Assembly (NCBI GenBank): GCA_021780225.1
Contig: JAJXZF010000021.1
Coordinates: forward strand, 1-64,000
Source of the DNA: Deltaproteobacteria bacterium
GTDB lineage: Bacteria > Desulfobacterota > Binatia > Binatales > Binataceae
Length of the DNA stretch: 64,000 nucleotides
Direction: 5' to 3'
Position numbers and translations under genes: made by a program. Below are positions 19,357-22,626 of this stretch, one piece after another. The first letter of the stretch is position 1. The number at the start of each line of letters is the position of its first letter. The notes below the pieces were generated by a model. That model was not told where the DNA came from. It worked only from the letters and a program-made list of their open reading frames with translations, and did no database searches.

Positions 19357-20856
19357 ATGCGAGGCTTGGCAAGGTGCGCGGTGCTGGTGGCGGCCGTTAT
19401 CGCTTTCGCGGCGGTGGCGGCGATGGCGGACGACATGTCGGTGGCGAGCGGCGCAAGCGATCCAGGCGGGACGCAGGAACAGCAAATCAGGGAAATACGC
19501 CAGGAGTTGGAATTTCTCGAGCGGCGCGTCGATCAGCTCGAAAACGAGAATGGCCGATTGAAAAAGGCCAACGCGGAACTGCAAAAGAACACCCAAAATC
19601 TGCAAAAGTCAACCACGCAGCAAATCAGCGCGTTGCAATCGCAGGCGAGCGAGTCCTCGTCGCCGCAGAATTTTTTCGATGCGATGAATCGTTTCCTCGG
19701 ACGGTATCGATTCACGCTCGTCGGCGGCGCGGCCGGCAGCTATATCTACGACCGCAACAGCAACACCAATACGTTTGCGCTCGACATGGAGCCGATCATC
19801 CTCTGGCAATTGAGCGACAATCTCCTTTTCGAGGGTACGGTAGAGGCGAATCTGCCCGCGGGAGGCTCGGCGGACTTCCAGCTTCCGGTCGCCGATTTCC
19901 AATATTTTCTGAACGACTATGCGGAATTGGTAATGGGCATCTTCGACCAGCCGTTCGGCGACTGGTATGAAGACCAGAGTCCGTTCTGGGTGAACCGGTT
20001 CGTGACGGCGCCGCTGCCCTTCAACGTCAATCCGCTGATTCCGCCGACCGAAATCGGCGTGCAATTGCGCGGCGGCTTCCAGTGGGGCGAGATGGGCCAG
20101 GTGGCCGATTACACGGTATGGTCGGGCAATGGTCCGGGCTACAGCAATTCGACCTGCGGCGCCAACACGCCGCCCAGCCCGCTGCCGACCTGCCCGTCGA
20201 CGGCGTTCGTCGGCGATACGCTGGTGGGGGTGAACAATATCAAGTTGAATACTCATACGCCGTCGTTCGGCGGCCGCTTCCGAATCTACCCGCTGCCGGC
20301 CGATTCCGATTGGGGCCGGCTCGAACTGGGCGTTTCGACGTATGACGGCAAATGGGAAAACGGGCTCTGGCTGACTTCGTGGGGAGTCGATTTCAACTAT
20401 TTCCGCGACAATCTGCAGATGCGCGGCGAATGGATCGAGAGCTACCGGCAGATGCCGGCCGGGCTTGGCTCCGACAACCGCCAGGGCTGGTACGTGCAGG
20501 CGGGTTATTTCCTTACCGGCTTGAAGGCGCCGCTCATTCCGTCCGCGGCCAACCAGTATATCGACCGGCTGGAGCCGCTGATTCGCTATTCCGGAATCAA
20601 TCAGCGCGCGGCCGTTCTCGGCAATATCATCACCACGCCCGAAATTGGATTTACCGGATCGCCGGCGCTCTACGCGCCGCATGCGCGCGAGGTTGCGCTC
20701 GGCCTGGATTATTGGTTCGCGCCCTCGGTCGTATGGCAGAACGAACTCGATCTCGAATTGCCGCGCGCGGGCGGATTTTACAGCGACACCGGCGCGCCGG
20801 TGGGCGCCTATCCGAACGATCGCGCGTTTGTTTCCCAGTTCGCGGTGGGATTCTAA
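19357..20856 (+). CDS. Outer-membrane beta-barrel porin with N-terminal coiled coil
   Basis: A 499-residue exported protein. A signal peptide (MRGLARCAVLVAAVIAFAAV ... AMA-DD) is followed by a coiled coil at about residues 40-95 rich in Glu, Gln and Asn. A long domain of alternating aromatic/polar strands then ends in a terminal Phe (FAVGF), the usual outer-membrane beta-barrel C-terminus. The coiled coil plus barrel resembles trimeric phosphate-selective or SLH-less porins, but the substrate is unknown. It is first in a plus-strand cluster with two cytochromes c and a copper protein (gaps of 17-120 bp), suggesting an envelope redox module. Confidence 0.82.
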   Translation: MRGLARCAVLVAAVIAFAAVAAMADDMSVASGASDPGGTQEQQIREIRQELEFLERRVDQLENENGRLKKANAELQKNTQNLQKSTTQQISALQSQASESSSPQNFFDAMNRFLGRYRFTLVGGAAGSYIYDRNSNTNTFALDMEPIILWQLSDNLLFEGTVEANLPAGGSADFQLPVADFQYFLNDYAELVMGIFDQPFGDWYEDQSPFWVNRFVTAPLPFNVNPLIPPTEIGVQLRGGFQWGEMGQVADYTVWSGNGPGYSNSTCGANTPPSPLPTCPSTAFVGDTLVGVNNIKLNTHTPSFGGRFRIYPLPADSDWGRLELGVSTYDGKWENGLWLTSWGVDFNYFRDNLQMRGEWIESYRQMPAGLGSDNRQGWYVQAGYFLTGLKAPLIPSAANQYIDRLEPLIRYSGINQRAAVLGNIITTPEIGFTGSPALYAPHAREVALGLDYWFAPSVVWQNELDLELPRAGGFYSDTGAPVGAYPNDRAFVSQFAVGF

Positions 20857-20873
20857 CGGTGGAGGCGGTTGGG

Positions 20874-21173
20874 ATGAAGCGGAAAATCAAAATCGGAATC
20901 GCCGCCGCCGTCGCCGCGGCGGCGCTCGCGGCGTTCGGCGGCGGAACCGTGCGCGCCGCGAATGATCTGACGCCGGCGCAGCAAAAACGCCAGATGTTCA
21001 GGCGCGGCGCGGAACTCTGGCCGATTTACTGCAATACCTGCCACAACGCGCGTCCCGGAGGAGAATTCTCTCCAACCGAGTGGAATATGATCCTGATGCA
21101 CATGCGAACGCAGGCGAATCTGCCGCCGCAGGACGCGAACGCGATACTCGAATATCTGAAGGCGTCGCGCTGA
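20874..21173 (+). CDS. Small periplasmic monohaem cytochrome c
   Basis: A 99-residue protein. A signal peptide (KRKIKIGIAAAVAAAALAAF ... VRA-AN) is followed by one haem-binding motif CNTCH and a Met-rich helix (EWNMILMHMRTQANL) that offers candidate axial methionines. The C-terminal helix DANAILEYLKAS is typical of class I cytochromes. The ATG follows GGAGG by about 10 nt and starts 17 bp after the porin stop. It probably carries electrons in the periplasm, between the cytochrome at 21290 and the NirK-like copper protein or a respiratory complex. Confidence 0.88.
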   Translation: MKRKIKIGIAAAVAAAALAAFGGGTVRAANDLTPAQQKRQMFRRGAELWPIYCNTCHNARPGGEFSPTEWNMILMHMRTQANLPPQDANAILEYLKASR

Positions 21174-21289
21174 TGCGCCGCCGCCGCGCTCCGCAACCAA
21201 AGAAAGGTTCCGACGTAATCCATATGGGGGCCGCCGCGGCCGCGGCGGCCCCGCGATCGAACCGGCGAATTCGTGCAAGGAGTCATATA

Positions 21290-21649
21290 GTGAGGAATCT
21301 TGCGTTTGTCTCAATGGCCGGAGCATTGGCGCTGGGCGCGTTGATCATCCGGCCCGCGCAAGCGCGCGCGCAAGGCGCGGCGCTGGATTTCAAAATCTAC
21401 TGCTCGCGATGCCACGGCGAAAACGGCAAGGGCGACGGCGCCGACGCGGGCACGCTCAAAACTCCGCCGCGCAATTTCACCGATTGCGCCGTCATGTCGA
21501 AAATTTCCGACGCCACGATGTTCAAGGCGATCAAGGACGGCGGCGCGTCGGTCGGCCTGCCCAACGACATGCCCGCCTGGTCCGCCGGATTGGACGACGA
21601 CGAGATTCACGGCCTGATTACCTATATCCGCGGTTTTTGCAAAAAATAG
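21290..21649 (+). CDS. Periplasmic monohaem cytochrome c (c6/cbb3-III-like)
   Basis: A 119-residue class I cytochrome with signal peptide (NLAFVSMAGALALGALII ... AQA), CSRCHGENGKGDG haem site and NDMPAWSAGL containing the likely axial Met, ending in a DDEIHGLITYIRGFCKK helix. A GTG start at 21290 is preferred: AAGGAG lies about 7 nt upstream and the signal peptide begins there. An ATG at 21173 overlapping the previous stop would add 39 mostly basic/Ala residues with no sense. The gene precedes the NirK-like copper protein by 23 bp and is probably an electron partner. Confidence 0.87.
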   Translation: MRNLAFVSMAGALALGALIIRPAQARAQGAALDFKIYCSRCHGENGKGDGADAGTLKTPPRNFTDCAVMSKISDATMFKAIKDGGASVGLPNDMPAWSAGLDDDEIHGLITYIRGFCKK

Positions 21650-21672
21650 GCGGCCCGGAGGAGATCACCAAA

Positions 21673-22626
21673 ATGGCGAATTATTCGCGGAAATACTCGA
21701 CGGCCGCCGGTTCGATTGAGACGGTCATGCGGCGGCGTCCGCAGGGCGCGCGCCGCATCGCGAGGCGCGCGGCCGCCGCGCTCGCGCTCGCGGGAATGCT
21801 TGCCGGGCCCATGGCCGCGGCGCACGCCGACAGCCGCAGCTTCACGCTTACCGCGGCGCGCAAGCGCGTTGCGATTGGCGCCGGCATGACTTATGACGCG
21901 TGGACCTACGACGGCGAAGTGCCCGGGCCTGTGATGCACGTCAAGCAGGGCGAAGAAGTGACCATCCATCTGGATAACCGCACCAGCGAGGCGCACGGAA
22001 TCGAGGTGATGGCCGCGCAAATCTCGCCGCGCCATTTCAGCGGCGATCCCACGGCCGCGGTTGATTACTCGTTCAAGGCGGGCGTGCCCGGCGTGTTCGA
22101 CTATCATTGCAGCGCGATTCCGGTGCTCGATCATGTCGCCAGCGGGATGTACGGCATGATGATCGTCGAGCCGTCCAAGGGATGGCCCGACGGTCCTGCG
22201 CAGGAGCTCACGCTCATCCAGGGCGAATTTTACGGCAAACCCAACGACAAGGGATTTGTCACCGCGGACCATGAGGCGATGTTGGCGGCGCAGCCGAGTT
22301 TCATCGTCTTCAACGGCGCGGTCAGCCGCTTCGGCGCGTCGAATCCGATCGAAATCAAAACCGGCAAACTGGTCCGCATTTTCTTCGTCAACGCCGGCCC
22401 GAACCTGGTTTCGACCTTTCACATTTCCGGCGTGATTTTCAGCACGGTTTATCAGAGCGGCAATCCCGCCGACGCGTTGCGCGACGTCCCGAGCTTCAGC
22501 GTCGCTCCGGGGCAGGGCGCGGTGTTCGAGTTCACCGTCAGCGACCCGGGCGATTATCGTTTTTCCGACACCGCGGGCGCGCATTCGTACAAAGGCGCGC
22601 TGGGCATTATCCGCGCGTCGCAATAG
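21673..22626 (+). CDS. NirK-like two-domain multicopper oxidase, type-2 copper site apparently missing
   Basis: A 317-residue exported protein with two cupredoxin domains and the layout of copper nitrite reductase. Type-1 copper ligands are intact: His108, Cys146 and His154 and Met159 in YHC...DHVASGM. The NirK segment FHVIGEIF is conserved as FHISGVIF (His250). However, the type-2 ligand equivalents His100 and His306 appear as Met113 and about Thr300; only His145 remains, and the catalytic Asp98 is Glu111. It may be an electron-transfer cupredoxin or an oxidase with other chemistry. GGAGGAG lies before the ATG. It is last in the porin-cytochrome cluster. Confidence 0.85.
   Translation: MANYSRKYSTAAGSIETVMRRRPQGARRIARRAAAALALAGMLAGPMAAAHADSRSFTLTAARKRVAIGAGMTYDAWTYDGEVPGPVMHVKQGEEVTIHLDNRTSEAHGIEVMAAQISPRHFSGDPTAAVDYSFKAGVPGVFDYHCSAIPVLDHVASGMYGMMIVEPSKGWPDGPAQELTLIQGEFYGKPNDKGFVTADHEAMLAAQPSFIVFNGAVSRFGASNPIEIKTGKLVRIFFVNAGPNLVSTFHISGVIFSTVYQSGNPADALRDVPSFSVAPGQGAVFEFTVSDPGDYRFSDTAGAHSYKGALGIIRASQ

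Follow-up and report, generated by a model that had tools for sequence, protein, structure and literature searches.

Copper nitrite reductases of the NirK family (NCBIfam model TIGR02376), such as those of Nitrosomonas (PDB 4kns) and Neisseria (AniA, 1kbv), carry a type-1 (T1) copper ligand set, the type-2 (T2) copper ligands His100, His135 and His306, and the catalytic pair Asp98 and His255. A two-domain protein of the same fold, P0001, is encoded in a 64,000-nt stretch of contig JAJXZF010000021.1 (the whole stretch analysed, here termed the window), from a Binataceae genome of Candidatus Binatota, a phylum described as yet uncultured (PMC8262859). The Binataceae concerned are uncultured soil bacteria. 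P0001 shares with NirK the fold, the T1 ligand set and the His135 and His255 positions, but His100, His306 and Asp98 are replaced. At roughly even confidence, we read P0001 as a former copper nitrite reductase that now acts as an electron relay with T1 copper only, as part of a respiratory branch of porin and cytochromes. Its gene is the last of a four-gene operon that spans positions 19357 to 22626, with intergenic gaps of 17, 116 and 23 bp. The features are as follows:

19357 to 20856, plus strand: OprO/OprP-type porin P0002, 499 amino acids (aa), with a signal peptide, a coiled coil at about 41-98 and a 16-strand barrel
20874 to 21173, plus strand: cytA, 99 aa, a secreted monoheme cytochrome c with one CNTCH and a weak match to Pfam Cytochrome_CBB3
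21290 to 21649, plus strand: cytB (P0003), 119 aa, a secreted monoheme cytochrome c with one CSRCH(G) and a Pfam Cytochrome_CBB3 match of 6e-10
21673 to 22626, plus strand: P0001, 317 aa, a two-domain NirK-fold cupredoxin protein with intact T1 ligands and loss of the T2 ligands His100 and His306
21994 to 22149, plus strand, within P0001: T1 ligands H108, C146, H154 and M159, together with H145 (His135), M113 (His100) and E111 (Asp98)
22567 to 22584, plus strand, within P0001: D299-T300-A301-G302-A303-H304, with T300 at the His306 position and H304 four residues further on

The porin and cytochromes also have described counterparts. The iron oxidase Cyc2 likewise joins a 16-strand OprO/OprP-type barrel to a single-heme cytochrome, but as one fused chain with the cytochrome N-terminal, whereas the porin and cytA are separate genes here. 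In Keffer et al. (PMC8406198), the barrel templates reported for Cyc2 are OprO and OprP, the same as the best folds of the window porin, and a motif AXPXFAR[Q/K][T/Y] is given as preceding CXXCH. This motif is absent from cytA, whose consensus across loci is LF..GA.LWP.YC..CHNARPG, followed later by MHM. The MtoAB and PioAB conduits also pair an outer-membrane porin with cytochromes c, but with 26 strands and a decaheme cytochrome as against 16 strands and monoheme cytochromes. Rusticyanin and plastocyanin-type cupredoxins resemble P0001 in having one T1 copper as the only redox center, but they consist of a single cupredoxin domain, unlike the two NirK-type domains of P0001. Unlike laccase-type multicopper oxidases, P0001 shows none of the His-X-His pairs of the trinuclear copper cluster, the matching stretches being AHGIEVM and YHCSAI.

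P0001 is a new variant on the known NirK fold. Its top phmmer match in the PDB is a NirK (6tfd, 5e-49), and its AlphaFold model (predicted local distance difference test score, pLDDT, 80) aligns with Nitrosomonas NirK 4kns at a VIA Z of 33.1 and a root-mean-square deviation of 1.7 over 256 residues. All 50 VIA entries listed for the model are NirK, with Z of 30-33. It should be noted that the model is a monomer and that its least confident parts (about 65), residues 111-130 and 301-310, are the loops that surround the old T2 site. The two domains are recognized by Pfam as Cu-oxidase_3 (64-169) and Cu-oxidase_2 (214-297). TIGR02376 is the best NCBIfam model, at 158.5 bits, under the curated cut-off of 296.3; the T2-complete members of the P0001 clade are also below the cut-off (170-190 bits).

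Alignment with about 115 relatives shows that the T1 set of P0001 is complete, H108, C146, H154 and M159 corresponding to His95, Cys136, His145 and Met150. One of the three T2 ligands is kept, H145 at the His135 position, and M113 and T300 stand in the places of His100 and His306. In the catalytic pair, Asp98 has become E111 and His255 is kept as H250. A first-pass annotation, made from the letters of the DNA, had listed four plus-strand genes over this segment and had read an intact T1 set with substitutions by M113, about Thr300 and Glu111; the open reading frames and coordinates, a recount of the residues and the alignment all agree with it.

Relatives were sought in 148 genomes of the class and in GTDB contigs, and nearly all close relatives are known from metagenome-assembled genomes (MAGs). 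The P0001 clade has about 21 members, all from Binataceae but for L062, a Methylomirabilota record; NirK-like proteins at a greater distance were numerous. In the table of distinct sequences, 96 have all three T2 histidines; among these, 93 have D at the Asp98 position and 3 have Y, and the His255 position is H in 96/96. Eleven lack both His100 and His306, and all 11 are from Binataceae and belong to the P0001 clade. The T1 ligands are invariant in these double-loss proteins, and the surroundings of the old T2 site vary: position 111 is E, D, N or F, position 113 is M, Y, Q or G, position 250 is H, A, M or D, and position 300 is T, S, G, D or Q. No conserved alternative set of metal ligands was found that marks out the T2-lost group and occurs in all its members. 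Because these four positions vary without a group-specific ligand, the T2 pocket is presumably free to drift. The T1 copper alone would then do the work, carrying electrons between the cytochromes and the respiratory chain.

Partial losses of the T2 site also occur. His306 alone is lost in L169, where it is now L, and His135 alone in L043 and L168, where it is now Q. Throughout the relatives the T1 ligands are intact, except for a change of Met to Leu in the T2-complete L062 and L176; the fragments L170 and L182 are unreadable at most ligand positions. A NirK-like protein of a Crenothrix polyspora MAG (L071, 8001-8798) has only His100 changed, to Leu, and its close relative L075 retains His100. 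At L170 (G056:C64, 6478-9649) a second copy of a NirK-like gene was matched only as two fragments, and the contig also has parts of NorB close by.

The first-pass annotation had described the four genes as an envelope redox cluster and had proposed a search for the same order in related genomes. The four-gene order recurs in 11 other Binataceae genomes, across genera, and the module is elsewhere joined by respiratory complexes, by a NirK or by small blue copper proteins, in support of that description. Between four congeners the ratio of nonsynonymous to synonymous substitution (dN/dS) of the cupredoxin gene is 0.18-0.24, similar to that of its operon partners, and a pseudogene is ruled out by this value of about 0.2. 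Thus the P0001 gene is the product of neither chance nor decay, since the gene order recurs in 11 other genomes, 11 sequences share the double loss and dN/dS is low.

The porin chain itself carries no heme motif CXXCH. Its AlphaFold model (pLDDT 78) has 16 strands behind a coiled coil, and the nearest solved structures by VIA are OprO (4rjw, Z 26.5) and OprP (2o4v, Z 26.2). The cytB gene starts with GTG, and an alternative ATG at 21314 is possible. A promoter and terminator scan gave no signal above chance. The gap between cytA and cytB (21174-21289) could form a long GC-rich hairpin (GGGGGCCGCCGCGGCCGCGGCGGCCCC); the gaps of congeners are different and also have strong predicted structures.

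A search that used only the porin as query gave relatives in 33 Binataceae genomes and in up to 7 other Binatia. Adjacency was counted with a purpose-written script on gene calls from a simple purpose-written caller. At 41/41 readable loci outside the window the gene directly after the porin is cytA, on the same strand and in most cases no more than 40 bp away; cytB follows cytA at 31 of these, and a gene of the NirK-like family is present at 11. At locus L051 the porin-cytA-cytB trio is followed by a canonical NirK, which with 331 bits exceeds the TIGR02376 cut-off. At 10 loci the trio is followed by an operon for a FAD and iron-sulfur (FeS) oxidoreductase, a Rieske protein, cytochrome b and a heme protein, the Rieske gene being uncalled at two. 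Genes of 635, 152, 433 and 314 aa downstream of other trios were considered as nosZ-nosL-nosD-nosF, an identity ruled out by their sequences and Pfam matches, which instead identify flavoprotein/FeS, Rieske, cytochrome b and heme proteins; the view that the trio serves denitrification alone was given up for this reason. At L206 the trio precedes subunits of an aa3 oxidase.

The recurrent Rieske/cytochrome b operon of Binataceae, with a GltD-like FAD/FeS subunit and a heme protein, is seen at L197, L198, L199, L205, L207, L209, L211, L213 and L223, and possibly encodes a bc-type complex linked to NAD(P)H. One contig region (L169; G053:C140, 744-11174) has two tandem trios, the first with the NirK-like gene that has lost His306 and the second followed by a flavoprotein/cytochrome b operon.

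A plastocyanin-family protein (Pfam PF00127, single-domain T1) is encoded immediately after cytA at L201, L202 and L203 and immediately before the porin at L215, and all four loci are without cytB. Small cupredoxins are thus present at 4/10 loci lacking cytB vs 0/31 with cytB, counts that are not corrected for relatedness, and small cupredoxin and cytB look interchangeable as soluble carriers. From these four loci, where a plastocyanin-type protein is present without cytB, it follows that the module accepts pure T1 carriers.

In the tree of the P0001 clade, T2-complete members split off first, L062 and then L046 together with L167. The NirK-like genes of L046 and L167 sit downstream of norB, and the L046 NorB matches the cNOR NorB of a solved structure at 3e-88. 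Because these basal, T2-complete members adjoin cNOR norB, the ancestor of the clade was probably a nitrite reductase. A clade of 16 members contains all family members found in the porin operon, T2-complete (L042, L044 and L165) as well as T2-lost. Parsimony requires 3 changes for the double T2 loss, and the approximately unbiased (AU) test, with the T2 ligand columns kept in the tree, does not reject a single double-loss clade (p 0.46). The double loss may have happened once or several times.

The contig that carries the window is 72 kb long and belongs to a genome of 3.8 Mb, an estimated 97 percent complete. Searches of this genome gave no NorB relative, no NosZ above cut-off and no second NirK, with the qualification that an incomplete assembly could hide a gene; a nitrite-reducing role is thus without a visible partner. 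Its respiratory chain looks aerobic. There is a single heme-copper oxidase, on contig C109; one NrfD protein is encoded close to the oxidase and another on contig C83. On C109 a segment of under 6 kb (G000:C109:127666-133118) takes in both the oxidase and the NrfD genes, and this cluster looks like alternative complex III plus oxidase. A cytochrome b query found no relative in the window genome or genus, and no bc1 complex was detected there.

The relay role of P0001 may be set out as follows. Electrons would pass between the porin-cytA pair, cytB and the T1 copper of P0001, and would be exchanged with the aerobic chain, whose components in the window genome include a quinol complex of NrfD type (probably alternative complex III) and the one heme-copper oxidase. 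By analogy with iron oxidizers, the porin and cytA may act as a split version of the Cyc2 cytochrome-porin, with P0001 in the place of rusticyanin. Such an undescribed Binataceae outer-membrane conduit, in which a porin and a separate monoheme cytochrome would do the job of Cyc2 and an ex-nitrite reductase would be the rusticyanin-like blue-copper partner, is proposed tentatively and is open to considerable doubt. Several observations weigh against these proposals. Every NirK-like locus of the module also has cytB, which makes the need for a further relay less than obvious; at about 100 kDa, a trimer would be bulky for a carrier; and the ancestral enzyme acted as an electron sink, not as a relay. 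The double-loss proteins keep H145 and mostly also H250 and H304, and some metal site could persist. No RubisCO was found in the window genome, which speaks against iron lithoautotrophy, and the Cyc2 motif is missing in cytA.

The retained histidines raise the alternative of a rebuilt interface site, in which copper or another metal would be bound in the old T2 pocket by H145 together with H304, H250 or both (either perhaps contributed by a neighboring subunit) and with E111 or M113, giving a new periplasmic oxidase or reductase. Consistent with this, H145 is kept in 11/11, H304 in 10/11 and H250 in 7/11 of the double-loss proteins, and the genus of the window combines E or D at 111 with M113. 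However position 250 is A, M or D in four double-loss members, and the T2-lost group has no specific, fixed new ligand. The first-pass annotation had considered that His304 might take the place of His306; as judged from the alignment, this case is weakened, since a histidine is found there in 20/96 T2-complete relatives also, and H304 does not appear specific as a replacement T2 ligand. A rebuilt site is considered unlikely. Of the "undescribed oxidase or relay" suggested earlier, the oxidase lacks support, since no conserved alternative ligand set was found, and the relay is the half that stands better. Another view, that a displaced histidine restores the T2 site and P0001 is still a nitrite reductase with cytA and cytB as electron donors, finds some support in the sister locus L051, with its canonical NirK behind the same trio, and in sister proteins L042, L044 and L165, which retain three T2 histidines in the same operon. 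Against it are the loss of Asp98 and of two T2 ligands, the TIGR02376 score (158.5 vs 296.3), and the failure to find NO reductase (NOR) or NosZ in the window genome. NOR is present in 2/10 genomes with T2-lost proteins only vs 4/6 T2-complete genomes, a small sample uncorrected for kinship. We regard this view as very improbable, in agreement with the earlier opinion that classical nitrite reduction would need the T2 site.

The porin may import a small substrate that is oxidized by an enzyme encoded at another place, cytA, cytB and the cupredoxin merely collecting the electrons. OprO/OprP-type porins are solute channels and the porin chain is without heme, as this would have it, but the pairing of porin and cytA holds at every locus read, 41/41, and no dehydrogenase gene is common to the trio loci, so that such a role seems rather improbable. 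Cupredoxin folds serve copper handling in other systems, and P0001 could buffer, store or deliver copper, for export or for maturation of an aa3 oxidase, with the porin as entry or exit pore. The trio of L220 is followed by a SCO1-like gene, as read by eye. The full Cys-His2-Met redox site and the two cytochromes indicate redox work instead, and module partners elsewhere are respiratory; copper handling is considered improbable.

A literature search for T2-less NirK proteins returned none, a weak absence given narrow terms and the few subscription journals covered. By title or abstract, the publications found on Binatota or Binatia with nitrite reductase or nirK have nothing on the P0001 gene, and the term "nirK" does not occur in the main Binatota paper.

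The porin and cytA, with their strict linkage, are a candidate for a new unit of electron transfer in the envelope. The T2 sites form a graded natural series, complete in proteins encoded next to norB, then lost in part, then lost at both His100 and His306, and such a series would illustrate a route from nitrite reductase to electron carrier. It should also be noted that metagenome counts of nirK can include proteins that are probably unable to reduce nitrite.

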